Source: Rufibacter immobilis
GTDB lineage: Bacteria > Bacteroidota > Bacteroidia > Cytophagales > Hymenobacteraceae
Assembly: GCF_003721565.1 (NCBI RefSeq)
Contig: NZ_RJJE01000017.1
Span: forward strand, 670,636-734,635
Length of the DNA stretch: 64,000 bases
Direction of reading: 5' to 3'
The first letter of the stretch is position 1, and every line of letters starts with the position of its first letter. Position numbers and translations under genes: made by a program. Shown piece by piece: positions 203-62,267 of the stretch. The notes beneath the pieces were generated by a model, which had not been told where the DNA came from, did not search any database, and worked only from the letters and a program-made list of their open reading frames with translations.

Positions 203-787
203 ATGAAAGATACCATCCGTTTATTTGTAGCCGCCCGGTTACCCCAGGACCTGACGAATTACCTGGTGCAGGCACGGGAAGCCTATGCGCAGCCGGCCAT
301 CAGGGAGGTGCCCGAGCAAAACCTGCACCTCACCCTGTTTTTCATAGGCAACGTGCCCGCTACGGAAGAGGCGAACATCCGGCAAAAGTTAGCCGAGGTG
401 GCGCAGCGGCACCAGCCGTTTACGCTGGCGCTGGAGCAACTGGAACCGGGACCCAAACCAAGGTCGCCGCGCCTGATCTGGGCACGTTTTCGGCAACTGG
501 AAGCCTTTGCGCAACTCAGTCTGGATTTAACGCAGGTCCTTGCGGAGGTGCCGCCCCGGCAGGAAAAGTTCATCCCGCACGTCACCCTCTGCCGCTTCAG
601 AAAAGACCTACCTGCCCCCAAAGACCTACCCGTGGTCGCGCCCGCAGAAGAAATCCTGTACCCAGTACCGGCACTGGCTCTCTGGCAATCCCAACTAGCC
701 TCACCGCACCCCATCTATACCGTGGTAGAGGAATTCCCCTTAGGTTACCGTTCATCTAAATCTACCAAAGCCACCCAACCCGTTTAG
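203..787 (+). CDS. thpR: RNA 2',3'-cyclic phosphodiesterase (2H family)
   Basis: Cytosolic 2H phosphoesterase, the family that hydrolyses RNA 2',3'-cyclic phosphates and was first named 2'-5' RNA ligase. Both catalytic H-x-T motifs are visible: HLTL (His42, Thr44) and HVTL (His126, Thr128). The length of 194 residues is normal for the family. I chose the ATG at 203 because homologues begin just before the first strand (MKDTIRLFVAARLP); an in-frame ATG at 149 would add 18 unrelated residues. The stop codon TAG at 785-787 lies inside a palindromic repeat (781-818), so the last residues (QPV) border or derive from that element. No operon partner is visible. Confidence 0.85.
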   Translation: MKDTIRLFVAARLPQDLTNYLVQAREAYAQPAIREVPEQNLHLTLFFIGNVPATEEANIRQKLAEVAQRHQPFTLALEQLEPGPKPRSPRLIWARFRQLEAFAQLSLDLTQVLAEVPPRQEKFIPHVTLCRFRKDLPAPKDLPVVAPAEEILYPVPALALWQSQLASPHPIYTVVEEFPLGYRSSKSTKATQPV

Positions 788-818
788 GGGCTGTTTTTCC
801 AAAAACGGTCCCTAAACG
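781..818. repeat. Palindromic element, symmetric type (copy 1)
   Basis: Arms CGTTTAGGGGC and GTCCCTAAACG flank a TTTTTCCAAAAA centre. The GTTTAG of the left arm provides the stop codon of thpR. Copies 1 and 2 lie 47 bp apart. Confidence 0.9.
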
Positions 819-865
819 CGAATTACATCCCCCATGCCCGGCTACCCCCCAAGTGGCTGGACTTC

Positions 866-904
866 TGTTTTAAGCCAAATTTCAAAAAAGGAGCCGCTAA
901 ACGG
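866..904 (-). repeat. Palindromic element, asymmetric type, inverted (copy 2)
   Basis: Read on the minus strand it starts CCGTTTAGCGGCTC and ends GGCTTAAAACA, the asymmetric form. It faces copy 1. Confidence 0.85.
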
Positions 905-918
905 AAGTCATGAATCCT

Positions 919-943
919 GAGTCTAGAATCTAGAGTCTAGAAG
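919..943. repeat. Short TCTAGA-rich quasi-palindromic repeat
   Basis: Three TCTAGA-like units separated by about nine bases lie in intergenic DNA between thpR and the kinase gene. No function is suggested by context. Confidence 0.5.
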
Positions 944-1063
944 TTGAATCTGGCTTAGCCTGGGAAGAAGTAGCCAAAGTGGGGAAAAGGCGCAGACGCT
1001 CGCAGGTCCTCCGGACGCTGCGAGGTCTCTTGAGTAGACGGTAACGCGGTAGCAGGCGAATTG

Positions 1064-1515
1064 TACCCACCCCAACCCCTCCGAGGAGGGGAGTATCTGC
1101 ACGAGTAAGAAAGTAGCTTAGCAAAGTCGATTATTAAATTCGTGCGAACAGAAAGTCTTCGGTCGCCTCTACGCCCAAATAAACAGCAATGCTGTATTAC
1201 TTCCGCTATGCAGCAAATTCCCCTCCTTGGAGGGGTAGGGGTGGGTTTACATCTGCTGAGCTTTATAATCACCAACACCACTAACGCCTCAACCCGCAAC
1301 AGCCTTTACTAAACGCACCTATTCCAGTCTTTCCCTAGAGCGCCTCGCTTGTGGCCAGGTAAGAAAGAAACTAAGAGGAAACTGCATTCACCTGGCCGCA
1401 AGGGCAGTGCGAGAGGGGAAGACGGGGCCCCGCGGCCGTGAGCGCTTACCGCCAAAGATGAAACAACACAGCCCATAAAACTCTAGACAAACGCCACAAC
1501 CAAGGCATCAGCCAA
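1064..1515 (+). repeat. Composite intergenic repeat, copy A
   Basis: Shares an ordered set of blocks with the region at 3928-4275: a C-rich/G-rich hairpin followed by AGTATC and TAAGAAAG, then ATTCCAGTCTTTC (1321), then a 34-bp block at 1417-1450 that is identical to 4149-4182, then AAGATGAAACAA, GCCCATAAA and GGCATCAGCC. In copy A the C/G-rich hairpin (CCCCTCC/GGAGGGG at 1076-1091) occurs again at 1220-1235 with inverted flanks, and GGCCAGGT/ACCTGGCC around 1353-1397 can form another stem. No open frame is convincing. This and the neighbouring palindromes account for most of the 827-bp gap between thpR and the kinase; beyond them I see only possible leader DNA for the kinase gene. Confidence 0.7.
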
Positions 1516-1614
1516 GTCACTCACCCCAGTTCCATCCCTTTTTCCAGCCCCTTCATCACATTTATTTACTCTTCATCGGCCTTTGCTGTATCATTGATCC
1601 ATAATCCATAGCAG

Positions 1615-3859: not shown

Positions 3860-3897
3860 CGTTTCAAGGCTGTTTTTCCAAAAACGTGCCCGAAACG
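3860..3897. repeat. Palindromic element, symmetric, with changed arms (copy 3)
   Basis: The centre GGCTGTTTTTCCAAAAAC matches other copies, but the ends read CGTTTC and GAAACG instead of CGTTTA and TAAACG. The A-to-C change on one arm is matched by T-to-G on the other, so pairing is kept. Confidence 0.75.
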
Positions 3898-3927: not shown

Positions 3928-4275
3928 GTACACATCCCCCTTCGCCCCCTTCAAAGGGGGAGTATCGGCTAAGAAAGCAAAGGCAAGCGTTGACGAGCTT
4001 CAAATTCTTTACATCTTCTACAACAAAAACCTGAAGAACCGGTGGCCTCTACTCCCGCACTTATTCCAGTCTTTCGGCTGAGCGCCTAGAGTTCGACCGG
4101 CTGCTGAGCGGGAGCGAGGTGGGCGGGGAGAAATCACAGCGCGAGGGCGGAAGACGGGGCCCCGCGGCCGTGAGCGCTTACCAGATAAGATGAAACAATT
4201 CCGCCCATAAAGCCATAGAAAGCCGTCAAGCCAATGGCATCAGCCAACTGCGTGCACAAGAGAAAAGCAGCCAAT
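3928..4275 (+). repeat. Composite intergenic repeat, copy B
   Basis: Same block order as copy A at 1064-1515: a CCCCCTT/AAAGGGGG hairpin (3945-3960), AGTATC, TAAGAAAG, ATTCCAGTCTTTC (4063), the invariant 34-bp core (4149-4182), AAGATGAAACAA, GCCCATAAA and GGCATCAGCC. The distance from hairpin to core is shorter than in copy A. It fills the gap between the LytTR regulator and the pseudouridine synthase. Confidence 0.7.
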
Positions 4276-4353: not shown

Positions 4354-4391
4354 CGTTTAAGGGGTCTTTTTCTGAAATTAGCCGCAAAACG
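4354..4391 (+). repeat. Palindromic element, asymmetric (copy 4)
   Basis: Left end CGTTTAAGGGG, right end GCCGCAAAACG. It lies in frame with the downstream pseudouridine synthase, 10 bp before its likely start. Confidence 0.7.
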
Positions 4392-5096: not shown

Positions 5097-5140
5097 TTGC
5101 GTTTAGGGGCTGTTTTTCGAAAAACAGCCCCTAAACGCAA
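5097..5140. repeat. Palindromic element, symmetric (copy 5)
   Basis: A perfect 44-bp palindrome: TTGCGTTTAGGGGCTG on the left, its exact complement on the right, TTTTTCGAAAAA in the centre. Confidence 0.95.
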
Positions 5141-6904: not shown

Positions 6905-6942
6905 CGTTTTAAGCATGTTTTTTGAAAATTGAGGCAGAAAGG
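6905..6942. repeat. Degenerate palindromic element (copy 6)
   Basis: CGTTTTAAGCATGTTTTTTGAAAA followed by a GAGGCAGAAA end resembles the asymmetric type with several changes. Called on similarity only. Confidence 0.4.
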
Positions 6943-8947: not shown

Positions 8948-8993
8948 CTTGCGTTTAGGGGCTCTTTTTCTTAAAATAGCTCCTAAACGCAAG
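8948..8993. repeat. Palindromic element, symmetric (copy 7)
   Basis: CTTGCGTTTAGGGGCTC pairs with the right arm AGCTCCTAAACGCAAG (one mismatch). It lies 8 bp after the serine hydrolase stop. GGAGCTATTTTAAGGAGC immediately downstream repeats part of the arm. Confidence 0.9.
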
Positions 8994-9734: not shown

Positions 9735-9778
9735 ATGCGTTTAGGGGCTGTTTTTCCAAAAACAGCCCCTAAACGCAT
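9735..9778. repeat. Palindromic element, symmetric (copy 8)
   Basis: Perfect arms ATGCGTTTAGGGGCTG and complement around TTTTTCCAAAAA, between the convergent msrA and aldo/keto reductase genes. Confidence 0.95.
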
Positions 9779-10792: not shown

Positions 10793-10831
10793 CGTTTAGC
10801 GCCCGTTTTTCCAGAATGAGGGGCAAAACAG
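10793..10831 (+). repeat. Palindromic element, asymmetric (copy 9)
   Basis: Left end CGTTTAGCGCCC, right end GGGGCAAAACAG. First half of a head-to-head pair with copy 10, 36 bp apart. Confidence 0.85.
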
Positions 10832-10867: not shown

Positions 10868-10905
10868 TGGTTTTACCTCAATTTCAGAAAAAGAGCCGCT
10901 AAACG
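10868..10905 (-). repeat. Palindromic element, asymmetric, inverted (copy 10)
   Basis: On the minus strand it begins CGTTTAGCGGCTC and ends GAGGTAAAACC. Second half of the pair. The rest of the 364-bp gap between the aldo/keto reductase and the Mut7-C gene holds nothing I recognise. Confidence 0.85.
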
Positions 10906-17228: not shown

Positions 17229-17268
17229 GCGTTTAGGGGCCGTTTTTCTAAAAACGGCCCCTAAACGT
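17229..17268. repeat. Palindromic element, symmetric (copy 11)
   Basis: CGTTTAGGGGCCG and CGGCCCCTAAACG around TTTTTCTAAAAA. It separates phaB from the hydroxybutyrate dehydrogenase gene within the cluster. Confidence 0.95.
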
Positions 17269-18932: not shown

Positions 18933-18971
18933 CGTTTAGCGGTTACTTTTTGGAAATCACGCGTAAAACAG
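18933..18971 (+). repeat. Palindromic element, asymmetric (copy 12)
   Basis: Left end CGTTTAGCGG, right end GCGTAAAACAG. Lies 10 bp upstream of the -7 box of the next gene. Confidence 0.85.
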
Positions 18972-19985: not shown

Positions 19986-20024
19986 CGTTTAGGGGCTGTT
20001 TTTCCTAAAACTGCCGTAAAACAG
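19986..20024 (+). repeat. Palindromic element, mixed type (copy 13)
   Basis: The left arm CGTTTAGGGGCTG is like the symmetric type, while the right end TGCCGTAAAACAG is of the asymmetric type. An intermediate form. Confidence 0.85.
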
Positions 20025-22239: not shown

Positions 22240-22278
22240 TGTTTTTGGCCTGATTTTGAAAAAAGAGCCCCTAAACGG
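22240..22278 (-). repeat. Palindromic element, asymmetric, inverted (copy 14)
   Basis: On the minus strand: CCGTTTAGGGGCTC at the start, AGGCCAAAAACAG at the end. Between moeA and the small acidic protein. Confidence 0.85.
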
Positions 22279-22325: not shown

Positions 22326-23513
22326 TTAAAGCAGCGTCAGCGGGAACGATTCTCCTGCCTTGAATTCATCCTGATCTGCCGGAAGACTCAGCAACGCGTC
22401 TGCTTTATATAAACTGGTTAAATCTCCGGAGCCGGATGTTTTCACGGGTAATGCCTGTAAAACACCGTTTTCATTGGTGAGCGTAACAGGAACGTGGTAG
22501 CCCAGGGCGGGTGGAAAGGAGATAGGCTGCGCCAGTTGCGCTTTCTGTGGCTGAGTTTTCAGGCCCAGCGAAGCCTTAAGCCATGGCCAGAAATACAGCT
22601 GGAAACACACGTACGTAGACACCGGGTTGCCCGGAAACCCGAAGACCACTTTCCCCTCCGGCAGCTTCCCGAACAGCATGGGCTTGCCCGGTTTTTGGGC
22701 TATTTTATGAAAAACGGTCGCTAAACCCAGCTTCTCCAATCCCTGCGGCAGAAAATCAAACTTGCCCTTAGACACCGCTCCAGACAGCAGCAGCACCTCA
22801 TGCTGCGGAAGAATGGCGGCTAATTCCTGTTGCATTGTTTCAGGCGCATCGGGGAGGTGGCAGAGGGAAACGGGAACCTTTGCCTCTTGGAGCGCCGCCG
22901 CCAGCACATAGGCGTTAGACCGTCTGATCTGGTGCGGAAGCGGGGTTTGCTCAACGTCTACCAGTTCATCTCCGGTAGAGCAAATGGCCACGCGGGGCAT
23001 ACGGTAAACTTTCGCCTGGTGCATGCCCACCGAGGCCAAAGTGCCAATGATGGCGGGCGTAACCGTCACTCCCCCTGAAACCAGAATGGAGCCCGCGGTA
23101 CTATCTGAGCCCTGGCGGTGGATGTTCTGGCCGGAGGTTACCTTCGCTGCCAGCACGGTGGCCACTTGGTTCTGGATTTCGCAAACCTCATAAGGCACCA
23201 CCGCATCTGTGTTGGCGGGAAGCATGGCTCCGGTCATCACTTCAATGCAATTTTCAGCAGTTGCCAAAGCCGTTTGGGGTGATCCGGCCGCCTGAATTTT
23301 TTCAATATGGAAGCTTCGGGTACCGGAGGCAAAACTTTGTGCCTTAATGGCGATGCCGTCCATGGTGACCCGGTCAAAGGGAGGCAAATCACGGTCGGCG
23401 GTTACTTCCTGGGCCAATACCCGCCCCACGGCCTGTAGCAAGGGTACTTCTTCTGTACCCAAATTCATCTTGTGTTGCAGCACCAACTGCAAGGCTTCGT
23501 CTACTGAGATCAT
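22326..23513 (-). CDS. moeA: Molybdopterin molybdotransferase
   Basis: Inserts molybdate into adenylylated molybdopterin. 395 residues with the MoeA layout: domain III motif PPFDRVTMDGIA, then VMTGAMLPANTDAVVPYE, CSTGDEL, GGVSKG-like LSGAVSKGKFDF, the KPGKP motif and FGFPGNPVSTYVCF. The last domain (domain IV) is present. Last gene of the molybdenum cofactor operon, 9 bp after the TauE/SafE gene. Confidence 0.93.
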   Translation of the reverse strand: MISVDEALQLVLQHKMNLGTEEVPLLQAVGRVLAQEVTADRDLPPFDRVTMDGIAIKAQSFASGTRSFHIEKIQAAGSPQTALATAENCIEVMTGAMLPANTDAVVPYEVCEIQNQVATVLAAKVTSGQNIHRQGSDSTAGSILVSGGVTVTPAIIGTLASVGMHQAKVYRMPRVAICSTGDELVDVEQTPLPHQIRRSNAYVLAAALQEAKVPVSLCHLPDAPETMQQELAAILPQHEVLLLSGAVSKGKFDFLPQGLEKLGLATVFHKIAQKPGKPMLFGKLPEGKVVFGFPGNPVSTYVCFQLYFWPWLKASLGLKTQPQKAQLAQPISFPPALGYHVPVTLTNENGVLQALPVKTSGSGDLTSLYKADALLSLPADQDEFKAGESFPLTLL

Positions 23514-38043: not shown

Positions 38044-38448
38044 AAGCAGCGCGTGGTTCTGTCTATTTAAATGTAAGAAATTAAAAAAGGAAGCAAAGCC
38101 AGTAGAGAGTAACATTTCTGTTTCTCAGCAAAAGCCTGTAACTGATAAAGTAGAAGATTACAGCCTCAATTATTGCTCCTTTCCGTTTAGAGGCTCTTTT
38201 TCTAAAAACAGCCCCTAAACGCTTAATTAAGAACGAGGAATAAAACTGAATATTGGACGTTGGACTGGGACGAGGCTCCGTGATTGGTTGAAAAGGTAAT
38301 AAACAGTACCGTATCAGAAAAGGTTTGTCTTCAGCTGGTTTAGGCACACAGGCAAAGACAGATGGGAAAAACCTTTTTAACCGTATATAGGTAAAATTAA
38401 ATAAGTATATTTTACAGGAACGAGCCAAGGCTCAACGCGCCAACCACT
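38044..38448. other. Divergent intergenic region
   Basis: About 400 bp between the GH43 and second kinase genes. Contains palindromic copy 20 only; both promoters presumably lie here, but no clear motif was found. Confidence 0.45.
38184..38221. repeat. Palindromic element, symmetric (copy 20)
   Basis: CGTTTAGAGGCTC on the left, ACAGCCCCTAAACG on the right, two mismatches in the stem. Confidence 0.9.
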
Positions 38449-40266: not shown

Positions 40267-40304
40267 CGTTTAGCGGCTCTTTTTCCAAAACTAGGCCTAA
40301 AACA
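40267..40304 (+). repeat. Palindromic element, asymmetric (copy 21)
   Basis: CGTTTAGCGGCTC on the left, AGGCCTAAAACAA on the right, directly after the stop codon of the secreted protein. Confidence 0.9.
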
Positions 40305-43549: not shown

Positions 43550-43916
43550 TGCAAGTGCAGACAGGATAAACCTTCAATAAGAACAAGCCCTGCTACATAG
43601 TTGGGGAGATGGCTCATCTCTTACTTAATATGATTCAAAATTACTGAATTAAAATATACAAGTCTGCTCTTGCGCTTAAAGCAAAGGCATAGTTCTACCC
43701 ATAATTTAAAGTGTATTTCTTCAGCTATTGAAGTTTGCGTTTAGGGGCTCTTTTTCCAAAAAGAGCCCCTAAACGCAACTACTCCTGGGAGGTTAACAAG
43801 GAATGTATGCTGGTAAAAAGTAAGAACTGCTTGTATTTATTGATGAATGTATAGAATAAGGTGTAACCACAAATTTCCTTTGGATATATTTGGAGTCATC
43901 TACTTGATAAAAATAC
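43550..43916. other. Intergenic region with one palindromic element
   Basis: About 370 bp between the divergent truC and small exported protein genes. Only palindromic copy 22 is recognised. Confidence 0.5.
43735..43778. repeat. Palindromic element, symmetric (copy 22)
   Basis: TTGCGTTTAGGGGCTC and its exact complement around TTTTTCCAAAAA. Confidence 0.95.
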
Positions 43917-43931
43917 TTGAAGAACACCTGG

Positions 43932-44312
43932 ATGATACAGCGTTGGTTTTGCTGGCTGTTGCTCGCTTGCTTCAGCATTCATGTAGGTTTTAGTATAAAA
44001 TCTGCAGAAGATGTCGGACACGGGTTAGGCTTTGTCTGCTCCACCCAAAAGAGTACTCCGGACGCCGATAAGGGCACTGCGCCTCTGTCGCTGATGCTGG
44101 AAGGGTACTTTGATCTGCTGGAAGATGTTCCGCGGGTTGAATACAATCTTCGCTCCATTATCAAGGTTGCTTGTAAAGCTGCCGTCATAAAACCATTGCA
44201 AGCGCTGGAGGTCATGCTGCCGCACTTGCTGCATAACTCGCTGGGCTACCTTCCGCAGCGGTTTGTGCTTTCTGAGTATCATGCCTTTATTTTCCGGCTC
44301 ACTCCCTTCTGA
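43932..44312 (+). CDS. Small possible exported protein, unknown
   Basis: 126 residues from ATG 43932 (15 more if ATG 43917 is used). N-terminal hydrophobic stretch MIQRWFCWLLLACFSIHVGF looks like a signal peptide or anchor; the rest (VCSTQKSTPDADKG, LEVMLPHLLHNSLGYLPQRF) matches nothing I know. It precedes the efflux operon by 120 bp on the same strand and could be its first gene. Minus-strand frames overlap it, so it is uncertain whether it is a gene. Confidence 0.45.
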   Translation: MIQRWFCWLLLACFSIHVGFSIKSAEDVGHGLGFVCSTQKSTPDADKGTAPLSLMLEGYFDLLEDVPRVEYNLRSIIKVACKAAVIKPLQALEVMLPHLLHNSLGYLPQRFVLSEYHAFIFRLTPF

Positions 44313-44432
44313 TTTTCCCCCTTCTTTTTTTCCGACTGAGGAAAAGTCTCTTTCCTTTCTCCCTGTTTGGTTTCTGCCGGTGCAACGCACTGTCTTAGAA
44401 TCCAATAATTTCTGTTTGCCTTTTCACAAGCA

Positions 44433-45599
44433 ATGGACACAAACTTATCCATCATGACTATCCCTTTCCGTAATATAACTTTCCTTTCCCTTATTACCTT
44501 GAGCGCGGGCCTGGCCGGGTGTGACGCCTCCAGTAACCCTAAAGAAAACAAAGTCACCGTGGCCAATCTGCCGGTAACCCAACTTATCACCAAAGACACC
44601 ACCCTGCATCAGGATTATGTTTCTGACATACAGGCGGTGCGCCATGTGGAGATAAGAGCCAAAGTAGGTGGTTTCTTAGAGCAAATACTGGTGGACGAAG
44701 GCCAGGAGGTAAAAAAAGGCCAGCCTCTGTTCAAGATCAATGCCCAGGAATACCAGTCTGAGTTTGCCAAAGCCAAAGCAAACTTCAACAGTGCTACCGC
44801 GGAGGCCATGACTGCCGAAGTGGAGGTAAAACGCGTGCAGATCTTGGTAGAGAAAAAGGTAATTTCTCCTTCTGAGTTACAGATGGCCAAAGCAAAATTG
44901 AAAGCGGCCCAGGCCAAAGTGGCCGAGGCCCGCTCGGCGCAGGAGAATGCCGCCGCCCGGGTAGCCTACACCTACATCAAAGCACCCTACAACGGCATCA
45001 TTGACCGCATTCCTCTCAAGGTGGGCAGCCTGATTGAAGAAGGAACCTTGTTAACTTCCATTTCTGACATCAATACCGTGTACGCCTATTTTGAAGTCTC
45101 TGAGAAAGAGTACCTGCAATACGCCAAAGCAGAGCTTTCAGGGGAAGACAATAGACATGGGCAAATCCAACTCATTCTGGCCGACGGCAGCACCTATCCC
45201 CATGCCGGCAAGATCGAGACCATGGAAGGAGTGTTTGAGCCCAACACAGGCTCCATCGCATTCCGGGCCAAGTTCCCCAACCCCAATAAACTCTTGAAAC
45301 ACCATTCTTCCGGCAAGGTGAGACTCTTTAATGAAGTAGACAGTGCTTTGCTCTTGCCGCAGAAAGCAACCTTTGAGATTCAGGACAAAAACTTTGTGTA
45401 TGTGGTAGGCAAAGACAACAAAGTGAAGACTAAAAGCTTTGAGCCTAAAGCCCGTTTCTCTCACTTTTACATAGTGGAATCTGGCCTGGAGCCGGGAGAA
45501 AAGGTGGTTTATGAAGGTGTGCAGACTTTGCGGGAGGGGGTAACCATAGACCCTGAACTTATCCAGATGGACAGCTTGCTCACCGCCAGCGCCAAATAA
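44433..45599 (+). CDS. RND efflux periplasmic adaptor lipoprotein
   Basis: 388 residues, membrane-fusion subunit of a tripartite pump. Signal with lipobox LAGC (Cys at ~29), lipoyl half-motif VEIRAKVGGFLEQILVDEGQEVKKGQPLFKI, a helical hairpin (residues ~95-165), the second half RVAYTYIKAPYNGIIDRI, beta-barrel and membrane-proximal domains. ATG 44454 is an alternative start. Operates with the RND and outer membrane proteins downstream; substrates cannot be read. Confidence 0.92.
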   Translation: MDTNLSIMTIPFRNITFLSLITLSAGLAGCDASSNPKENKVTVANLPVTQLITKDTTLHQDYVSDIQAVRHVEIRAKVGGFLEQILVDEGQEVKKGQPLFKINAQEYQSEFAKAKANFNSATAEAMTAEVEVKRVQILVEKKVISPSELQMAKAKLKAAQAKVAEARSAQENAAARVAYTYIKAPYNGIIDRIPLKVGSLIEEGTLLTSISDINTVYAYFEVSEKEYLQYAKAELSGEDNRHGQIQLILADGSTYPHAGKIETMEGVFEPNTGSIAFRAKFPNPNKLLKHHSSGKVRLFNEVDSALLLPQKATFEIQDKNFVYVVGKDNKVKTKSFEPKARFSHFYIVESGLEPGEKVVYEGVQTLREGVTIDPELIQMDSLLTASAK

Positions 45600-45764
45600 T
45601 CTATTTCTTTTAATCAACCTGTTTCAAAGGAACAGCAGGGACCGGCACGGCCTATTGGCAGGGGCGGTGTCCTGCCATGCCTATGTAAGTATACCGGCAG
45701 CCAATTGCCCTTTAGGGAACGTGCAGCCAAGGTTTCCTTTGGGCGGTGACAAGAAAATACATCC

Positions 45765-48700
45765 ATGTTAAAAATATTTATTGAACGACCAGTGCTCTCA
45801 CTGGTGATCTCCCTGTTTTTCGTCTTGCTGGGAGTGATGTCCATTATGAATCTGCCGGTCACGCAGTTCCCGGAGATTGTACCGCCTTCGGTCACGGTAA
45901 CGGCCAAATATACCGGGGCCAATGCCGAGGTTTCCACCAAAGCGGTGGCTACGCCGCTGGAAAGAGCTATTAACGGGGTGCCGGGCATGACTTACATGTC
46001 TTCGGTTTCCAGCAACAACGGGGTCACCCTCATTCAGGTGTTCTTCGAGGTGGGCACCGACCCAGATCTGGCCGCGGTGAACGTGCAGAACCGCGTGACC
46101 ACCGTGTTGGATGAGTTGCCCGAAGAGGTGATCAAAGCCGGGGTAACCACGGAGAAGGAAGTGAACAGCATGCTGCTCTACCTCAACCTCATGAGCGATG
46201 ATCCCGCCTCAGATGAGAAGTTCGTGTACAACTTCGCCGACATAAACGTGCTGCAGGAACTCAAGCGGATTGATGGGGTGGGCTTCTGTGAAATCATGGG
46301 CTCCAGAGACTATTCCATGCGGGTGTGGCTTAAACCCGACCGGCTCCTGGCCTACCAGATTTCGCCTGATGATGTGATTGAGGCCATTAGAGCCCAAAAC
46401 GTAGAAGCCGCGCCGGGGAAAGTTGGGGAAAGTTCGGGCAGATCTGAACAGTCGCTGCAATACGTGCTGCGGTACACCGGTAAATTATTTGAGCCGGCCC
46501 AGTATGAGAACATTGTGATCAAGGCAGATGAGCAGGGCAACGGCTCCGTGTTGCGTCTGAAAGATGTAGCCGATGTGGAGTTCGGTTCCATGGATTACGG
46601 CATGGTTTCCAAAACCGACGGGCGCTTCTCGGCCTCCATCATGATTAAGCAGCGCCCCGGCTCCAACGCCAAAGAGGTGATTGAGAATGTGAAGCTGAAG
46701 ATGGCAGAACTACAGGAAACCTCCTTCCCGCCGCGCATGAGCTACAACATTGCCTATGATGTTTCCCGCTTTCTGGATGCCTCTATGGAAAAGGTGTTGG
46801 TGACTCTGTTAGAGGCCTTTATTCTGGTTTCTATTGTGGTGTTCATCTTTCTGCAGGACTTCCGCTCCACGCTTATTCCTATTCTGGCGGTACCGGTGTC
46901 TCTGGTTGGTACCTTCTTTTTCATGGAGATGTTTGGCTTCTCCATTAACCTGCTTACCCTGTTTGCCTTGGTATTGGCCATTGGTATTGTGGTAGACAAT
47001 GCCATTGTGGTGGTTGAGGCGGTGCACACCAAGATGCACGAAAAGCATCTCTCGGCCAGAAAAGCCACGCTGGAGGCGATGGGGGAGATCAGTGGCGCCA
47101 TTGTAGCCATCACGCTGGTGATGTCGGCGGTGTTTGTGCCGGTGGCCATGATGACGGGCCCGGTGGGCATTTTCTACCGGCAGTTCTCTATAACCCTGGC
47201 CATTTCCATTGTGATCTCCGGGGTGAACGCCCTGACGCTAACTCCCGCCCTCTGCGCATTGCTCCTGAAAAACATCCATGGGCAGAGCGAGAAAAAAAGC
47301 TTGCTGCAACGGTTCTTCCAGAGCTTCAACAAAGGCTATGGTAAAGTGGAAGGGGGCTACAAAAATACGGTACTGCGCATAGCGGGCAGGTACGCCGTCA
47401 CGTTGGGGCTATTGCTGTTCTTCCTTTTCAGCACCTGGGGCATTACCAAAGTCCTCCCCACCGGTTTTATTCCCACCGAAGACCAGGGCATGATCTACGT
47501 GAACGTGACCACTCCGCAGGGAGCCACGGTGGAGCGTACTTCTTATGTCCTGGACAGGATTCAGCAGGCGGCGCAGAAAATGGACGCGGTGGAGAACGTG
47601 TCTACCCTGGCTGGTTTTAGTTTGTTGACTGATGCGGCCGGAGCTTCTTACGGCATGGGTATGATTAACCTCAAGTCATGGGAAAACCGCACGGCCTCGG
47701 TAGAAGAGATCATTGCCGCCCTTGAAAAGGAGACGAGTGACCTCAAAGACGCCAGTATAGAATATTTCCCGCCGCCCACGGTCCCGGGCTTCGGGAACTC
47801 CAGCGGATTTGAGTTGCGCGTACTGGCCCGAGATAAAACCGCGACCCTAGCGGAGACCGATGAAGTCACGAAGAAATTCATCTCAGCCCTGCAAGAGGCG
47901 CCGGAGGTGAGCAGTGCCTTCACCAACTTTGACCCCAATTTCCCGCAGTACCTGATTCACCTGGACCAGGACATGGCCGCCAAAAAAGGAGTCACCGTGG
48001 ACAATGCCATGAGCACGCTCCAGACTTTGATGGGCAGTTATTATGCCTCCAACTTTATCCGGTTCGGGCAGATGTACAAGGTCATGGTGCAGGCCTCGCC
48101 AGATTACAGGGCCAAGCCAGATGATGTGCTCAAAATGTATGTCAAAAACCAATGGGGCGAGATGGTGGCGCTTTCTTCATTTGTGAAGTTGGAGCGCGTG
48201 TACGGGCCGGAGCAGTTGACCCGCTACAACATGTACACCTCGGCCATGATCAACGGAAGCGCCGCCCCTGGGTACAGCAGCGGTGATGCCATCAAAGCCA
48301 TTGAACGGGTGGCCCAGGAGACCTTGCCCCGCGGCTTTACTTTTGAGTGGTCGGGCATGACGCGCGAGGAGATTCTATCGGGTGACCAGACCGTGTACAT
48401 CTTTATTGTCTGCCTCATTTTTGTGTACCTCTTGCTGGCGGCCCAGTATGAGAGTTTCCTGCTGCCGTTACCGGTCATCCTTTCATTACCTACCGGTATT
48501 TTCGGGGCATTTCTGGCTTTGCAACTCATGGGCTTGCAGAACAACATCTATGCACAGGTGGCCCTGGTGATGCTCATTGGACTATTAGGAAAGAATGCCA
48601 TCCTGATTGTGGAGTTCGCGATCCAGCGGCAGAAAGAGGGTCGTACGGTGTTGCAGGCGGCCATTGATGGTGCCGTGTCCCGTTTCAGACCTATCCTGAT

Positions 48701-48905
48701 GACCTCGCTGGCCTTTGTAGCCGGGCTTATTCCACTGTGTATCGCCACGGGAGCGGGAGCCATGGGCAACCGTTCCATCGGGACAGCCGCGGCGGGGGGC
48801 ATGCTCATCGGGACCATCTTTGGGGTACTCCTGATCCCGGGTTTGTATGTGCTATTTGCCTCCATCGGGAAGAAGAAAACCAAAAAAGCACTCCAAACGG
48901 CCTAA
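45765..48905 (+). CDS. RND efflux inner-membrane pump (HAE1 family)
   Basis: 1046 residues, twelve membrane segments with two large periplasmic loops. Proton-relay acidic residues in VLAIGIVVDNAIVVVEAVHTK; gate-region and C-terminal motifs LLGKNAILIVEFAIQR and GAVSRFRPILMTSLAFVAG. Resembles AcrB/MexB-type drug and solvent exporters. 165 bp after the adaptor gene with no terminator seen; overlaps in frame only with the downstream gene's non-coding extension. Confidence 0.95.
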   Translation: MLKIFIERPVLSLVISLFFVLLGVMSIMNLPVTQFPEIVPPSVTVTAKYTGANAEVSTKAVATPLERAINGVPGMTYMSSVSSNNGVTLIQVFFEVGTDPDLAAVNVQNRVTTVLDELPEEVIKAGVTTEKEVNSMLLYLNLMSDDPASDEKFVYNFADINVLQELKRIDGVGFCEIMGSRDYSMRVWLKPDRLLAYQISPDDVIEAIRAQNVEAAPGKVGESSGRSEQSLQYVLRYTGKLFEPAQYENIVIKADEQGNGSVLRLKDVADVEFGSMDYGMVSKTDGRFSASIMIKQRPGSNAKEVIENVKLKMAELQETSFPPRMSYNIAYDVSRFLDASMEKVLVTLLEAFILVSIVVFIFLQDFRSTLIPILAVPVSLVGTFFFMEMFGFSINLLTLFALVLAIGIVVDNAIVVVEAVHTKMHEKHLSARKATLEAMGEISGAIVAITLVMSAVFVPVAMMTGPVGIFYRQFSITLAISIVISGVNALTLTPALCALLLKNIHGQSEKKSLLQRFFQSFNKGYGKVEGGYKNTVLRIAGRYAVTLGLLLFFLFSTWGITKVLPTGFIPTEDQGMIYVNVTTPQGATVERTSYVLDRIQQAAQKMDAVENVSTLAGFSLLTDAAGASYGMGMINLKSWENRTASVEEIIAALEKETSDLKDASIEYFPPPTVPGFGNSSGFELRVLARDKTATLAETDEVTKKFISALQEAPEVSSAFTNFDPNFPQYLIHLDQDMAAKKGVTVDNAMSTLQTLMGSYYASNFIRFGQMYKVMVQASPDYRAKPDDVLKMYVKNQWGEMVALSSFVKLERVYGPEQLTRYNMYTSAMINGSAAPGYSSGDAIKAIERVAQETLPRGFTFEWSGMTREEILSGDQTVYIFIVCLIFVYLLLAAQYESFLLPLPVILSLPTGIFGAFLALQLMGLQNNIYAQVALVMLIGLLGKNAILIVEFAIQRQKEGRTVLQAAIDGAVSRFRPILMTSLAFVAGLIPLCIATGAGAMGNRSIGTAAAGGMLIGTIFGVLLIPGLYVLFASIGKKKTKKALQTA

Positions 48906-48921
48906 CCTTTTGTATCCATCC

Positions 48922-50385
48922 ATGACTTTAAGCAAAATGCCTTTTAATAAAAAAATATCGTCTTACTTCAGTTGTCTTTTCCTGCTGGGGCTGTTAGCGG
49001 GGTGCAAAGCGTCTGAACCTACGCCTCTGCCAGCTTTGCAGAGCGTACTTACCACTTTCCAGGCCTCTTCAGATTCCACCAGTCTGGCGGATCTTTCCTG
49101 GAAAGAGTTTTTCAGAGATCCATTTCTGGTGGGCTTGATTGATTCAGCGCTACAGCATAACCCAGATGTGCTTAGTGCGGTGCAGCAGGTGGAAATAGCC
49201 CGCGCCAATACATTACTCAGCCGCGGGGCTCTTCTGCCGCAAGTGACGGCCATGGGGGCGGCAGGAGTAGAGAAGTTCGGGGATTACACCATGACCGGTG
49301 TAGGTAACTTTGACACGAACCTGTCACCTAATATAAATGAAAACCAAAAAGTGTCGCAGCCGCTGGTGCCTGATTATTTCCTAGGTTTGCGCAGTGCCTG
49401 GGAGGTAGATCTCTGGGGGAAATTACGCAAAGCTAAGAAAGCAGCCTTTACACGTTTGATGGCCTCTGAGAAAGGAAAACAATTGGTGACCACAGCGCTT
49501 ATCTCTGAGGTAGCGCACCAGTACTATTACCTGCTGGCGCTGGACCGAGAGAAAACGATTCTGGACAACAACATAAAGCTCCAGCAAACGGCCCTGGAGA
49601 TGGTGAAGGTGCAGAAAGAGGCTGGCAGAGCTACCCAATTGGCCGTGCAGCAGTTTGAGGCGCAACTCCTGAACACTCAAGGATTAAAAGCCGAGAAAGA
49701 GCAGGAAATTCAGACAGTGGAGGGGCAGTTGAACCAGTTGCTGGGCCGGTACCCGCAACCCATTGTGCGTAGCCAGACATTGGATGCACAGGAATTGCCT
49801 GCCCAGATGAAGGCAGGGGTACCCACTGATCTGCTCCGCCGCCGCCCCGACATCCAGCAGGCGGAACTGGAACTGCAGGCGGCCCAAGCCGATGTGGCCG
49901 CCGCCCGAGCCGCATTTCTGCCGTCTTTGGTGCTCTCTCCGTACGTAGGTTTTAATTCTTTCAATGCGTCATTGCTCTTCAAACCGGCTTCGGTTGCGTA
50001 TGGTATTTTAGGTGGTTTATCCGCGCCTTTGCTGAACCGTTCGGGCATAAAAGCTGATTTTAGAAGAGCCGATGCCGCCAAGATTCAGGCCTATCATGCC
50101 TACCAGAAAAGCATCCTGACGGGGGTGCGGGAAGTAGTGACCACCCTCCGGGAAATTGAGAACTATCAGCAGGCTTCCGCTTTGAAGGAGCAGGAGGTGA
50201 AGGTGCTTCAAAACGCCGTCAGCACGTCTAATGATCTGTTCTTCTCTGGGTATGCCAGTTACTTAGAGGTAATTACTGCCCAGCGAGGAGTATTGGAAGC
50301 AGAACTTAAGCTGGCGGCCACTAAAAGAATTGTATTACAATCTACTGTGAATCTGTACAGAGCCTTGGGTGGAGGCTGGGAATAA
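48922..50385 (+). CDS. RND efflux outer-membrane lipoprotein (TolC/NodT family)
   Basis: 487 residues. Lipobox LLAGC; two repeated OEP domains, each a helical barrel part (e.g. DPFLVGLIDSALQHNPDVLSAVQQVEIARAN and VPTDLLRRRPDIQQAELELQAAQADVAAARAA). Outer-membrane channel of the pump. ATG 48922 (MTLSKMPFNKK) chosen; an upstream frame to 48847 overlaps the pump gene. ATG 48937 is possible. Confidence 0.92.
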   Translation: MTLSKMPFNKKISSYFSCLFLLGLLAGCKASEPTPLPALQSVLTTFQASSDSTSLADLSWKEFFRDPFLVGLIDSALQHNPDVLSAVQQVEIARANTLLSRGALLPQVTAMGAAGVEKFGDYTMTGVGNFDTNLSPNINENQKVSQPLVPDYFLGLRSAWEVDLWGKLRKAKKAAFTRLMASEKGKQLVTTALISEVAHQYYYLLALDREKTILDNNIKLQQTALEMVKVQKEAGRATQLAVQQFEAQLLNTQGLKAEKEQEIQTVEGQLNQLLGRYPQPIVRSQTLDAQELPAQMKAGVPTDLLRRRPDIQQAELELQAAQADVAAARAAFLPSLVLSPYVGFNSFNASLLFKPASVAYGILGGLSAPLLNRSGIKADFRRADAAKIQAYHAYQKSILTGVREVVTTLREIENYQQASALKEQEVKVLQNAVSTSNDLFFSGYASYLEVITAQRGVLEAELKLAATKRIVLQSTVNLYRALGGGWE

Positions 50386-50418
50386 GCCTCTTTTATAGAA
50401 GAAAGCTTAAAAGTAAAA

Positions 50419-50450
50419 GCCCCGGCTATAGAAACTAGCCGGGGACTTTT
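50419..50450. terminator. Intrinsic terminator
   Basis: CCCCGGCTA pairs with TAGCCGGGG, with AAAAG before and ACTTTTG after, between the convergent efflux and mnmE genes. Confidence 0.88.
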
Positions 50451-51886: not shown

Positions 51887-51925
51887 CGTTTAGCGGCCCT
51901 TTTTACAAAAATAGGCGAAAAACAG
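51887..51925 (+). repeat. Palindromic element, asymmetric (copy 23)
   Basis: CGTTTAGCGGCCC on the left, GGCGAAAAACAG on the right. 27 bp upstream of mnmE. Confidence 0.85.
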
Positions 51926-51991: not shown

Positions 51992-52029
51992 CGTTTAGCG
52001 GCTATTTTTTGGAAATAAAGGCTAAAACG
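51992..52029 (+). repeat. Palindromic element, asymmetric, inside a coding end (copy 24)
   Basis: CGTTTAGCGGCTA on the left, AAGGCTAAAACG on the right. The reverse complement encodes the last residues and stop codon of the thioredoxin-like protein. Confidence 0.88.
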
Positions 52030-52499: not shown

Positions 52500-52538
52500 C
52501 GTTTAGCGGCCGTTTTTCAAAAATCGGGCCTAAAACAG
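52500..52538 (+). repeat. Palindromic element, asymmetric (copy 25)
   Basis: CGTTTAGCGGCCG on the left, GGGCCTAAAACAG on the right, between the thioredoxin-like gene and the metal permease. Confidence 0.9.
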
Positions 52539-55665: not shown

Positions 55666-55704
55666 CGTTTAGCGGCTCTTTTTCTGAAAACATGGCTAAA
55701 ACAG
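55666..55704 (+). repeat. Palindromic element, asymmetric (copy 26)
   Basis: CGTTTAGCGGCTC on the left, ATGGCTAAAACAG on the right. First of a head-to-head pair inside the metal importer operon. Confidence 0.92.
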
Positions 55705-55731: not shown

Positions 55732-55769
55732 CAGTTTAGCTCCTTTTTTGGAAAAAGAGCCGCTAAACG
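55732..55769 (-). repeat. Palindromic element, inverted (copy 27)
   Basis: On the minus strand CGTTTAGCGGCTC at the start and GGAGCTAAACTG at the end. 27 bp from copy 26. Confidence 0.88.
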
Positions 55770-55796: not shown

Positions 55797-56741
55797 TCAT
55801 CTAAGCGCTGTCACTATTTTAGTTACGTTGGCTTTTACCATTCCCGCATAGGTGTCGGCACCGCTTTGGGCATCGCCTAAGGCGTCTGAGTAAAGCGTGC
55901 CGCCCAACTTGATGTCATGCCCTTTCTGCCGACAGCCTTCCAGCACGGCTTCAATGGCTTTCTGGGAAACAGAGCTCTCCACAAACACTGCTTTCACCCG
56001 GCGCGAAACAATGAAATTCACCAGCGAAGACACGTCTTGCAAGCCAAACTCAGATACCGTGGAAATTCCCTGCAGGCCCTGCACCTCTATCTGGTAGGCA
56101 TCTCCAAAATACCCAAATGCATCATGGGCCGTGATGAGGATGCGTTGCTGGGCCGGTATGGAAGCAATTTCGCTCTGCGTCCAGCGGTGAAGGCTGTCTA
56201 GCTGGGCGGTGTAGCGGGCGGTGTTCTGTTGGTATTGCGCCGCGTGGGCGGTGTCTCTGGCCTGTAGGCGGTTAGATAGGTGCGTTACCACCTGGCTCCA
56301 GAGTTGCACATTGAACCAAATGTGCGGGTCGTGGCTGTCCTGGAATTCGGGCAGACGGCGGAGGTTGGCTTCGGGTAAGCTTTCGGCGGCGGCCCAGACT
56401 TCTTTCTGGCGGGCCAGTTTCTCCAGCACTTCGCCCATTTTCCCTTCCAGGTGCAGGCCGTTGTAAATGATGATATCCGCTTCGCGCAGCGTTTGCAGAT
56501 CGCCCAGGGCGGCTTTGTACAGGTGCGGGTCTACGCCCGGGCCCATCAGGGCCTGTACCACCGCACGGTCACCCACCACATTGGCCACCGCATCGCGCAG
56601 AATCCCGGTGGTGGTGACAATGTACAGTTTGCCCTGCCGGTGGGCCTGCGCGCCCGGAGTATCCTGGGGAGCGCAGGCCGCACACAGTAGGAGTAAGATC
56701 AGGTGAGCTAAAAGTAAACCGCGTTTTAGAGCTATTTTCAT
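55797..56741 (-). CDS. Metal ABC transporter substrate-binding lipoprotein
   Basis: 314 residues, cluster A-1 binding protein for Mn, Zn or Fe(II). N-terminal lipoprotein-like signal ending LLLLCAAC. Metal ligands expected at His in GVDPHLY, His in DPHIWFN, Glu in AVFVESSVS and Asp in LYSDALG. No His-rich loop, which favours Mn or Fe over high-affinity Zn; this is inference. ATG 56741 and the first residues MKIALKRG lie in a degenerate palindromic element (56721-56760). GTG 56762 is an alternative start. Confidence 0.9.
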   Translation of the reverse strand: MKIALKRGLLLAHLILLLLCAACAPQDTPGAQAHRQGKLYIVTTTGILRDAVANVVGDRAVVQALMGPGVDPHLYKAALGDLQTLREADIIIYNGLHLEGKMGEVLEKLARQKEVWAAAESLPEANLRRLPEFQDSHDPHIWFNVQLWSQVVTHLSNRLQARDTAHAAQYQQNTARYTAQLDSLHRWTQSEIASIPAQQRILITAHDAFGYFGDAYQIEVQGLQGISTVSEFGLQDVSSLVNFIVSRRVKAVFVESSVSQKAIEAVLEGCRQKGHDIKLGGTLYSDALGDAQSGADTYAGMVKANVTKIVTALR

Positions 56742-56760
56742 AAAAGCAGCGCAGAAACGC
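56721..56760 (-). repeat. Degenerate palindromic element over a start codon (copy 28)
   Basis: On the minus strand it begins GCGTTTCTGCGCTGC and ends TAGCTCTAAAACGC, with central TTTTATGAAAA. The ATG of the substrate-binding protein is in this centre. Confidence 0.6.
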
Positions 56761-59669: not shown

Positions 59670-59695
59670 GTTTCTTATTCTTTCACAAAGACAAA

Positions 59696-60514
59696 ATGAA
59701 CGACTTACGAGAAGCGATAGAGGCCGCCTGGGAAGACCGGACAATGCTGGCCCATAAAACCACGCAGGAAGCCATCAGATGCGTGATCCATCACTTGGAC
59801 TGCGGTGAATTGCGCGTGGCTGAACCAACCGGCACCGAGAAATGGCAGGTAAACGAGTGGGTGAAGAAAGCCGTGCTCATGTACTTCCCTATACAGAAAA
59901 TGGAAACCATTGAGGCTGGTCCTTTTGAGTTCCATGACAAGATTCCGTTGAAGAGCGGCTTCGCCGATCTGGGGGTAAGGGTGGTGCCGCATGCGTTGGC
60001 GCGTTATGGTTCGTTTGTCGCCAAAGGGGTGATCCTGATGCCTTCCTATACCAACATTGGCGCTTACGTTGACGAGGGAACCATGGTAGATACCTGGGCC
60101 ACCGTGGGCTCCTGCGCCCAAGTAGGCAAGCACGTGCACCTGAGCGGTGGCGTGGGTCTGGGCGGTGTGCTGGAGCCGGTGCAGGCCTCTCCGGTTATCA
60201 TTGAAGACGGAGCTTTTATAGGGTCACGCAGTATTTTGGTGGAAGGCTGCCACATTGGGAAAGAAGCCGTGATTGGCGCGAATGTCTGCATCACAGGTTC
60301 TTCCAAAATCATTGACGTAACCGGTTCTGAGCCCAAGGAATACAAAGGCTACGTGCCGCCGCGCTCCGTGGTGATTCCTGGTTCCTACACCAAGGAGTTC
60401 CCGGCCGGTGCTTTCCAGGTTCCCTGCGCCCTGATCATTGGCCAACGGAAAGAAAGTACTGATTTGAAGACTTCATTGAACGATGCCCTCCGTGAAAACG
60501 GGGTAGCTGTTTAG
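59696..60514 (+). CDS. dapD: Tetrahydrodipicolinate N-succinyltransferase
   Basis: 272 residues. Adds succinyl to tetrahydrodipicolinate in lysine and meso-diaminopimelate synthesis. Left-handed beta-helix of hexapeptide repeats (GAYVDEGTMVDTWATVGSCA, GAFIGSRSILVEGCHIG), N-terminal helical domain and C-terminal tail VPCALIIGQRKESTD. The stop TAG is provided by palindromic copy 29. Single gene. Confidence 0.96.
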   Translation: MNDLREAIEAAWEDRTMLAHKTTQEAIRCVIHHLDCGELRVAEPTGTEKWQVNEWVKKAVLMYFPIQKMETIEAGPFEFHDKIPLKSGFADLGVRVVPHALARYGSFVAKGVILMPSYTNIGAYVDEGTMVDTWATVGSCAQVGKHVHLSGGVGLGGVLEPVQASPVIIEDGAFIGSRSILVEGCHIGKEAVIGANVCITGSSKIIDVTGSEPKEYKGYVPPRSVVIPGSYTKEFPAGAFQVPCALIIGQRKESTDLKTSLNDALRENGVAV

Positions 60515-60546
60515 CGGCTCTTTTTCCTAAAAGAAGCTTAAACCAG
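60508..60546 (+). repeat. Palindromic element, asymmetric, overlapping dapD end (copy 29)
   Basis: TGTTTAGCGGCTC on the left, AAGCTTAAACCAG on the right. GTTTAG gives the final Val and stop of dapD. Confidence 0.9.
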
Positions 60547-60629: not shown

Positions 60630-60693
60630 AAAACACCGCATGCGTTTAGGGGCTCTTTTTCAGAAATGAGCCCCTAAACGCATGCGGTGTTTT
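60630..60693. repeat. Palindromic element, symmetric, extended to 64 bp (copy 30)
   Basis: Outer arms AAAACACCGCAT and complement flank the usual GCGTTTAGGGGCTC. The outer 26 bp pair without mismatch; the centre TTTTTCAGAAAT is nearly paired. Between the convergent dapD and dehydrogenase genes. Confidence 0.97.
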
Positions 60694-60713
60694 ATGTCTT
60701 TATAAACAACAGA

Positions 60714-61604: not shown

Positions 61605-61631
61605 ATAATGAGCGTTAGTTAGTTCAGTTTA

Positions 61632-61662
61632 CAAAGCTATGATTATTCTACTGCGCTACAAG
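61632..61662 (-). promoter_or_regulatory. Bacteroidota-type promoter of the dehydrogenase gene
   Basis: On the minus strand, CTTG, then 19 bp, then TAGCTTTG: a close match to TTTG-N19-TAnnTTTG. The box ends 27 bp before the start codon. Confidence 0.7.
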
Positions 61663-61831
61663 AAGTAACGGGTAGCTGGGTGCCTCTTGTTGCAGCGCCT
61701 GCATAGTTATTTTCTGTATTTTGAAATCCTATATAAATCTTTTAAAATATTCTTGCGTACAAGCAGAAAAATTAATAAAGCACTCGCTAAACAGGTGCTA
61801 AACTTTAACCAAACCAAACACAACTAAAACT

Positions 61832-61984
61832 ATGGGAAATTTATTGTATATCATCGCGGTGGTGCTAGTGATTATCTGGCTGATCGGTTTCTTAGGATTC
61901 GGTGATCAAGTAGGGGGCATCATCCACGTGTTGTTGGTCATTGCCATCATCGCTGTCTTGCTCCGCGTCATACGCAGGGCCTAA
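61832..61984 (+). CDS. Small membrane protein, Lmo0937-like (first of two)
   Basis: 50 residues: a single hydrophobic hairpin, MGNLLYIIAVVLVIIWLIGF followed by LGFGDQVGG and HVLLVIAIIAVLLRVIRRA. Resembles the Lmo0937/DUF5670 family of tiny membrane proteins, often linked to stress. Two helices with a short loop, basic C-terminus. Start ATG 61832. Confidence 0.85.
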   Translation: MGNLLYIIAVVLVIIWLIGFLGFGDQVGGIIHVLLVIAIIAVLLRVIRRA

Positions 61985-62027
61985 CTAAAGTTGAACTTCT
62001 CTCCTTAGAGAGATAACCTATATTATT

Positions 62028-62177
62028 ATGGGAAATATACTGTATATCATTGCGGTGGTTCTCGTGATCCTTTGGTTAATCGGGTTCTTAGGGTTCGGAG
62101 ATGCCGTGGGCGGAATCATTCACGTCTTGCTGGTCATCGCGATCATTGCCGTACTCTTACGACTGATTAGAGGATAA
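62028..62177 (+). CDS. Small membrane protein, Lmo0937-like (second of two)
   Basis: 49 residues and nearly identical to the protein 43 bp upstream (differences include L4I, I15L, Q26A, the C-terminal end). A recent tandem duplication; silent codon changes are many while the protein is kept, which suggests both are used. Confidence 0.85.
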   Translation: MGNILYIIAVVLVILWLIGFLGFGDAVGGIIHVLLVIAIIAVLLRLIRG

Positions 62178-62193
62178 CGCCAGGAACCAACTG

Positions 62194-62235
62194 AAAACAG
62201 CAAGGGCGCCTTTATAAAGGCGCCCTTGCTGTTTT
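62194..62235 (+). terminator. Terminator hairpin joined to palindromic copy 31
   Basis: AAAACAGCAAGGGCGCCTTT pairs perfectly with its complement, 21 bp with no clear loop beyond TATA. The right end CTGTTTT is also the end of copy 31. Confidence 0.92.
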
Positions 62236-62267
62236 AGACCTGTTTTAGGAAAAACGGCCGCTAAACG
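62229..62267 (-). repeat. Palindromic element, asymmetric, inverted (copy 31)
   Basis: On the minus strand CGTTTAGCGGCCG at the start and GGTCTAAAACAG at the end. Confidence 0.9.

Follow-up and report, generated by a model that had tools for sequence, protein, structure and literature searches.

The 64,000-nucleotide stretch of the Rufibacter immobilis genome examined here (contig NZ_RJJE01000017.1, positions 670,636 to 734,635; the window, with positions counted from its first letter) is densely set with 38-nt palindromes and near-palindromes. We read them as an old family, akin to the repetitive extragenic palindromes (REPs), that is fixed in place and whose letters have been overwritten arm by arm through templated copying, a reading to which we give a probability of roughly 0.57. 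The sites are shared across the genus, the arms in this genome (4.77 Mb, 17 contigs; G000, the other genus genomes being coded in the same way) carry lineage-specific letters in a near all-or-none fashion, positions are linked within an arm and hardly at all between the two arms of a copy, and symmetric copies are bordered by inverted flanks specific to each copy.

The element follows a generic 36-nt motif, GTTTW-N8-TTT-N4-AAA-N8-WAAAC, which occurs in the window 28 times with at most one mismatch and 32 times with at most two, against 0 and 1 in the reversed window used as a control. The first-pass annotation of the window had put the number at about 31, and both this figure and its coordinates hold. 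The arm motif CGTTTAGSGGC (at most one mismatch) appears 40 times where 2.13 are expected, a count reached in 0 of 100 dinucleotide shuffles, and a scan of the window against Rfam at gathering thresholds returned no match. Counts throughout take copies with at most two mismatches to the motif (three where stated) and leave more diverged copies out, and gene borders come from a simple codon-score caller, so the borders of gaps are approximate. A scan of the whole genome and of related genomes, proposed with the first-pass annotation, shows that the family is in no way limited to the window: the motif skeleton has 1663 copies in the genome at up to one mismatch, and each of 16 genus genomes holds 539–1836 at the same threshold. 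Among 134 sampled genomes from other genera of the family there are 0–16 copies at up to one mismatch (reversed control, 0–12), and with no mismatch allowed in 291 genomes from the order, the four Rufibacter hold 100–1261 and the 287 others 0–8 (control, 0–10). Among the matches listed, exact 38-nt matches occur in at least three named-contig stretches, from Rufibacter sp. XAAS-G3-1 and R. sediminis. CGTTTAGSGGC is mostly specific to the lineage, with 1805 occurrences in the R. immobilis genome (7 for the reversed pattern) against 1–106 in the other 15 genus genomes. The skeleton is common to the genus; the arm letters are not.

The copies are largely intergenic, as had been claimed from the window: of 216 copies counted over 464 kb of the genome, 11 have more than half of their length within a predicted gene, three of these being in the window. 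Density in the same 464 kb is 3.72 copies per kb in convergent gaps, 2.59 in co-directional gaps and 1.16 in divergent gaps, and in co-directional gaps the median distance from the upstream stop codon to the copy is 60 nt. Spacings of 60–140 nt between neighbours account for 22 of 287, so there is no inverted pair at a set spacing of the kind that defines a REPIN. A palindrome of about 20–40 nt with many intergenic copies is what the terms REP and REPtron describe, and to this extent the earlier reading of a REP-like, mostly intergenic and very abundant family stands; its further proposal, that recent mobility is the source of the present sites, is not supported.

The evidence on that part of the reading comes from a comparison of a 200-kb stretch of the R. 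immobilis genome with syntenic stretches (73–200 kb) of 15 other genus genomes. Presence was compared at up to three mismatches in gaps of at least 60 nt; the tests on individual copies and on position used gaps of at least 40 nt. Of the 79 copies in the stretch (up to three mismatches), 46 were testable; the other 33 either were not in a gap or were in one with orthologues in fewer than three species. For every one of the 46, one or more of the other species also carries a copy in the orthologous gap, and for 45 a counterpart in one or more of them is no more than 10 bp away from the same position; the symmetric copies taken alone share the orthologous gap in 16 of 16 cases. Measured from either gap end, 73% of 301 comparisons put the copies within 8 bp of each other, where random placement of the same number of copies per gap gives 15% (13% with one random copy per gap); for gaps with a single copy the figure is 79% of 185, against 17% at random. 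At one site every one of the 16 genomes has a copy, 23–28 nt from the same gene end. Gap by gap, copies are present in both genomes, in one or the other, and in neither 25, 4 and 3, and 17 times for R. immobilis and G022, 30, 2 and 3, and 19 times for R. immobilis and G017, and 53, 2 and 2, and 30 times for the close species G042 and G051. When 18 gaps with one-sided detection from two close species pairs were aligned by eye, 15 held a decayed copy opposite, one was a likely real indel, and the remaining two were assigned to neither class. Because copies share positions in orthologous gaps, recent mobility seems a poor account of where they stand today; with all 46 testable sites shared, and one possible indel and two unclear cases in 18 gaps, the mobility proposed in the first-pass annotation appears, by the refuting condition given there, unneeded for the current distribution. 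The best reading is that the sites predate the Rufibacter radiation and are now largely fixed.

The arms that occupy these sites speak what we call lineage dialects. The arm consensus is CGTTTAGSGGCTS in R. immobilis, CGTTTTTGGCCTG in both G022 and G017, CGTTTTCGGGCTCATTTC in G048 and CTGTTTTnGGCCTG in G060, and the remaining genus genomes have looser, GTTTTnGGCCTG-like arms with a mean of 9.9–12.0 of 18 pairs. At variable positions, copies within the R. immobilis genome are 0.58–0.60 identical to one another, compared with 0.44–0.53 to their orthologues, in five comparisons of 21–26 pairs. In the close pairs G022/G017, G042/G051 and G045/G032, orthologues are more alike than copies within a genome, as would be expected if the dialects predate those splits or if decay is independent.

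Evidence that an arm is the unit of change comes from 664 kb of the R. immobilis genome (290 copies, 580 arms), in which each arm was compared with six dialect forms and its differences from the closest one were counted. From 0 to 12 differences the arms number 207, 119, 39, 30, 28, 42, 36, 31, 30, 11, 2, 4 and 1; 63% match the lineage dialect, and the others resemble the decayed arms of other species, whose distances (in G006, G042 and G051) peak at 5–7. Permuting columns among the arms merges these distances into a single hump at 2–3 (31, 102, 161, 147, 87, 38, 11, 3 and 1), and for this reason we do not regard the arms of this genome as mosaics. Linkage within an arm runs at r2 0.06–0.28, and across the two arms of a copy at 0.00–0.04. 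Both arms, one arm and neither arm are in dialect in 120, 143 and 27 copies, where independence predicts 126, 130 and 33. Asymmetric copies have one arm that is 69–100% conserved at positions 11–18, which were not used for its selection, beside an old and heterogeneous partner, and copies of this kind retain both the old arm and the 38-nt length. Since positions are linked within arms and the arms are nearly independent, the asymmetric copies are better described as half-replaced old ones.

The two subtypes distinguished in the first-pass annotation are real in this sense: 122 of 192 exact CGTTTAGGGGC left arms in the 664 kb have the same right arm, and 0 of 71 exact CGTTTAGCGGC left arms do. 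Its suggestion that perfect palindromes arose from asymmetric copies fares less evenly, in that arm copying is supported and the asymmetric copies look half-replaced rather than ancestral in themselves. Position 7 of a dialect arm is C in 84, G in 42 and A in 17 cases beside an old arm, and G in 203, C in 23 and A in 14 beside another dialect arm. Unreplaced arms keep a memory of their orthologous site (0.557 against 0.459 when shuffled; z 0.7–3.7 in single species and 7.4 pooled, the pooled value counting sites several times), compared with 0.516 against 0.501 for replaced arms and 0.500 against 0.496 for exact ones, for which power is low since the arms are nearly identical. As a separate observation, the central dinucleotide (positions 18/19 of the 38-nt element) is rarely self-complementary, at 5% against 32% expected in R. 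immobilis, with the same direction in G022, G017, G048 and G060, as if a perfect palindrome without a spacer were avoided at the centre. The whole genome of G060 also holds 12 exact matches to the R. immobilis C-type arm CGTTTAGCGGCTSTTTTT, with 0 in G022, G017 and G048; these arms were possibly brought to G060 by transfer from a lineage like that of R. immobilis.

Symmetry in the symmetric copies often runs past the element itself. Copy-specific inverted flanks of at least 6 bp border 13 of 42 symmetric copies and 0 of 42 when the flanks are re-dealt, and the 71 copies with 16–18 pairs have a mean inverted flank run of 4.10 against 0.75, with a maximum of 15 bp; beyond the first mismatch, complementarity is back to background. 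Runs of at least 6 bp accompany 26 of 120 copies with both arms in dialect, 0 of 143 half-replaced copies and one of the eight copies whose arms are both old. Inverted runs of 15 bp and 11 bp without a T tract are among the R. immobilis examples, and such flanks are best explained by the copying of one side onto the other. This near confinement of inverted flanks to like-armed copies lends support to the earlier idea that perfect palindromes are made by copying arm onto arm.

It is worth setting out how such a family might have come about. Palindromes resembling REPs would have settled in gaps, mostly just past stop codons, before the Rufibacter radiation, and would for the most part have stayed at their sites ever since. 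Templated copying may then have overwritten their letters in some lineages, giving rise to the lineage dialect, with a copying unit of one arm (about 19–20 nt) that would stop at the palindrome centre; overwriting of one arm would leave an asymmetric copy and overwriting of both a symmetric one. Many symmetric copies would have been perfected when one side, with a stretch of its flank, folded back and was copied onto the other. Copying is what we infer from these patterns; it could take place at the replication fork or by way of single-stranded copies, and a REP-associated tyrosine transposase (RAYT), a HUH nuclease, may feed it. In a tentative version, which we consider possible but rather doubtful, short single-stranded arm copies, with a domesticated RAYT or replication stalled at hairpins as their source, would anneal to and replace old arms at more than 1000 fixed palindromes, so that dialects sweep through a genome without movement and fold-back follows later. 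C-type arms bear no clear strand bias of the kind that an IS200-like lagging-strand mark would leave (20/23 in own1, 5/11 in own8, 7/5 in the window), nor any clear bias relative to transcription (co-directional gaps: 22 upstream, 23 downstream).

Several results weigh against arm-by-arm rewriting. The comparison of identity within the genome and between orthologues is not uniform when taken alone, because five small comparisons contradict it: in ten comparisons with 7–12 pairs, orthologue identity is 0.42–0.60, and in five of them (G012, G037, G063, G048 and G060) it equals or exceeds identity among own copies. Clear bimodality of the arms is seen in R. immobilis alone; G048 (44 copies) hints at two groups, and the arm distances of G022 (101) and G017 (71) form one hump. 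Part of the cross-arm linkage is significant, with negative D, and site memory between own copies and orthologues persists (z 0.8–4.5), mostly in unreplaced arms. An exact C-type right arm is found in 0 of 71 C-left copies, though fold-back predicts C–C palindromes. T tracts accompany about half of the R. immobilis inverted runs of at least 5 bp (36 copies) and 25 of 28 such runs in other species; these runs form terminator stems or look like them, and part of the inverted-flank signal may be due to selection on such stems. At one site occupied in all 16 species the pairs change in a compensatory way. All comparisons are between species, so conversion is deduced from their patterns rather than seen directly.

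RAYT is a plausible source and a candidate agent. The window has no match to the Y1_Tnp domain, in agreement with the first-pass annotation, and the sole match in the R. immobilis genome lies elsewhere (L004:1432-1977). It encodes a RAYT of 181 aa with the motifs NHLH, WQ and YIHQNP that scores 98.7 bits against NCBIfam NF047646 (REP-associated tyrosine transposase; cut-off 80), and copies of the palindrome stand 265 bp before and 260–261 bp after it, an arrangement that the earlier note had suggested looking for. Its neighbours are presumably dnaE and trxA, which we recognised from sequence. In a survey covering 30 of the 45 Y1_Tnp loci of the genus, relatives with 86–87% identity lie beside one or both of the same neighbours in G022, G057, G063 and G048; among these four genomes and R. 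immobilis, dialects are sharp in three but not in the other two, so that no clear link between the presence of a RAYT and the sharpness of the dialect emerges from the loci covered. Copies within 600 bp flank 9 of 20 Y1_Tnp loci on both sides compared with 18% of 642 control genes unmatched for gap size (p 0.006), and 7 of 17 once three IS200-like genes are set aside (p 0.025); 10 of the 30 examined loci failed the open reading frame/HUH filter and were omitted from both the flank test and the tree. Y1_Tnp matches occur in 15 of the 16 genus genomes, 1–6 in each, next to the 539–1836 copies; G017 has no such match, yet it has 1150 copies and the same dialect as G022. As a side observation, RAYT-like genes at ten loci (L029, L030, L034, L037, L038, L040, L042, L043, L044 and L047) have SHLH or SHVH in place of NHxH in the HUH motif. 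They make up a variant of their own, present in several species, and in two of these genes a stop interrupts the aligned frame. In its account of RAYT subclass 2.6 (= group 5), PMC6006769 gives the motifs NH[LIV]H, WQ and YIH[QN]NP, a mean length of 179 aa and a mostly Bacteroidetes distribution, and describes flanking 'atypical secondary structures' with copies elsewhere too. The R. immobilis RAYT fits this subclass by motifs and length.

Other explanations must be set against the same observations. The family could be a mobile REP or REPIN population moved recently by RAYT, in which copies in dialect are new insertions and old ones decay. REP-like size and placement, the one RAYT with copies on either side, the excess of doubly flanked Y1_Tnp genes over their unmatched controls and the presence of Y1_Tnp in nearly all of the genomes speak for it; we nonetheless find it improbable, as symmetric copies too occupy orthologous sites genus-wide, positions in gaps agree far above random, half-replaced copies keep the old arm and the 38-nt length, and the Y1_Tnp-free G017 is rich in copies. 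A putative co-evolving DNA-binding factor (a nucleoid protein, a gyrase-like enzyme or a dimeric regulator) might instead select half-sites, with the dialect following its specificity. Fixed sites near 3' ends, arms that evolve almost independently and the lack of a general RNA pairing constraint would all suit such a factor, and yet base-by-base selection predicts mosaic arms where these are bimodal and internally linked, some 19 nt per half-site at hundreds to more than 1000 sites seems to us more than a protein needs, and the copy-specific inverted flanks go unexplained. We hold this explanation to be unlikely, if less so than recent mobility.

It is also conceivable that the copies are terminators or hairpins at mRNA 3' ends, so that a function in RNA would account for both conserved sites and pairing. 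Their position just past stop codons, the high density in convergent gaps, the compensatory changes at one site and the fact that some copies form the upper stem of hairpins built as A tract, stem and T tract agree with this. Against it, G-U and A-C mismatches are equally common on the transcript strand of copies within 100 nt of a stop, numbering 97 and 101 in R. immobilis, 82 and 88 in G022 and G017 together, and 307 and 295 in 15 other species. Changes on a single side outnumber compensated ones by 146 to 10 between G022 and G017 (5.4 compensated expected by re-dealing) and by 218 to 13 and 77 to 4 in two other species pairs, and covariation between arms within species is weak, the exceptions being position 6 in G048 and G017 and some positions scattered elsewhere. 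Because G-U equals A-C and one-sided changes dominate, RNA pairing is not generally under selection. By a simple scan, 64 of the 214 stops that have a copy no more than 150 nt away also have a canonical terminator close by, upstream of the copy in 32 cases and downstream in 32, as do 19 of the 148 stops lacking a copy; a GC-rich stem followed by a T tract, the mark of an intrinsic terminator, is present in a minority of copies and absent from most, the T run of the element lying in its middle and not after it. A termination role as the general explanation is very unlikely. Least likely of all, and hardly credible to us, is a drive like that of the DNA uptake sequences (DUS) of Neisseriaceae, by which biased transformation would spread a dialect. 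DUS pairs often stand at gene ends, but uptake sequences are common in genes too, whereas 11 of 216 copies here lie mostly within genes. By analogy, the arm dialects do vary among species, as the DUS dialects treated in PMC3630211 do.

The proposed arm-by-arm rewriting of fixed palindromes can be set out copy by copy in the window, where pairs are counted out of 18. Both arms are in the lineage dialect at 781–818 (15 pairs), in the symmetric copies at 8952–8989 (14), 9738–9775 (17; in a convergent gap), 17230–17267 (17) and 38184–38221 (15; in a divergent gap), and at 26439–26476 (13) and 26571–26608 (13; G7 left, C7 right). Further symmetric copies stand at 5100–5137, with all 18 pairs, at 36766–36803 (17, plus 12 bp of complementary flank), at 43738–43775 (17) and at 60643–60680 (15), the last with 12 bp more of complementary flank ending in A/T tracts like a terminator. 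Half-replaced copies with the dialect arm on the left (plus strand) are those at 10793–10830, 18933–18970, 28375–28412, 28635–28672, 40267–40304, 51887–51924, 51992–52029 (overlapping the end of a predicted gene), 52500–52537, 55666–55703 and 60508–60545, together with 19986–20023, which has a G7 dialect arm on the left and an ancestral-type right arm and was correctly described earlier, as 19986–20024, as an intermediate with a symmetric-type left arm. The dialect arm is on the right (minus strand) at 866–903 (ancestral-type arm left), 10868–10905, 22240–22277, 55732–55769 (two mismatches) and 62230–62267, and a diverged half-replaced copy on the minus strand overlaps a predicted gene at 22690–22727. 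Diverged copies with neither arm counted as dialect lie at 3860–3897 (two mismatches to the generic motif), 4354–4391 and 56722–56759 (overlapping a predicted gene); that at 6905–6942 (two mismatches, 8 pairs) is weak and the least certain of the 32.

The copy at 43738–43775 marks the edge of a block about 93% identical to G063. Megablast delimits a 6.6-kb block at 43815–50450 with 93.6% identity, other aligned parts being 68–83% identical, and plain blastn has the block begin at 43738, exactly where the element starts; at this edge G063 also carries a copy, one spelled in its own arm letters. Judged from sequence likeness, 43738–50450 looks like a recent transfer. Elsewhere in the window, repeats at 1314–1515 and 4056–4247, about 2.7 kb apart and 84% (32 bp) and 80% (111 bp) identical, precede predicted genes at 1615 (with a histidine kinase domain) and 4437, and are probably a local duplication.

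Why short bacterial repeats are alike within a genome and different between species is an old question. In Rufibacter the genus shares sites and not letters, which makes transposition separable from in-place replacement. If our reading is true, bacteria undergo concerted evolution in blocks of about 20 nt, where homologous recombination is usually thought to need more, and since the blocks would end at the palindrome centre, the mechanism lends itself to direct tests. Our search of the open-licence literature on Rufibacter palindromes, REP/RAYT in Bacteroidetes and REP gene conversion found no description of these elements.

Precedents exist for several parts of this picture. Higgins et al. 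reportedly proposed in 1988 that REPs evolve through gene conversion among palindromes; what the present analysis adds are the arm-wise blocks and the change of dialect at orthologous sites. Template switching corrects quasipalindromes by copying one arm onto the other and so perfects imperfect palindromes, but this is a process within a site and cannot alone spread one sequence over many sites. REPINs, as portrayed in the portions of PMC3116915 and PMC8049555 bearing on them, resemble our family in their many copies, vertically kept RAYT and long persistence; a REPIN is an inverted pair at a set spacing, whereas each copy here is a single palindrome. The REP orthoswitch of Pseudomonas and Stenotrophomonas likewise has syntenic RAYTs with different REP classes and decaying old classes, and in the part of PMC3686654 that deals with it new variants spread while old ones decay, whereas here letters appear to have changed at old sites, arm by arm. 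Close as well are the REPtrons with subclass 2.6 RAYTs, to judge from the relevant section of PMC6006769, with their short, abundant intergenic palindromes and the motifs seen in the R. immobilis RAYT. As defined in PMC3733652, a REP ends on one side in a foot, GTAG or CGTC, that stays unpaired. Inspection by eye of the base profiles surrounding the arms shows no such foot, just a weak T-G before CGTTTAG, and because the foot was sought and not found we do not file the family as canonical REPs. From REPtrons it is further set apart by sites largely fixed across a genus, arm-wise dialects and abundance in a genome free of Y1_Tnp. What we read as new relative to the known REP-like elements is the rewriting of the palindromes in place, arm by arm, at fixed sites.

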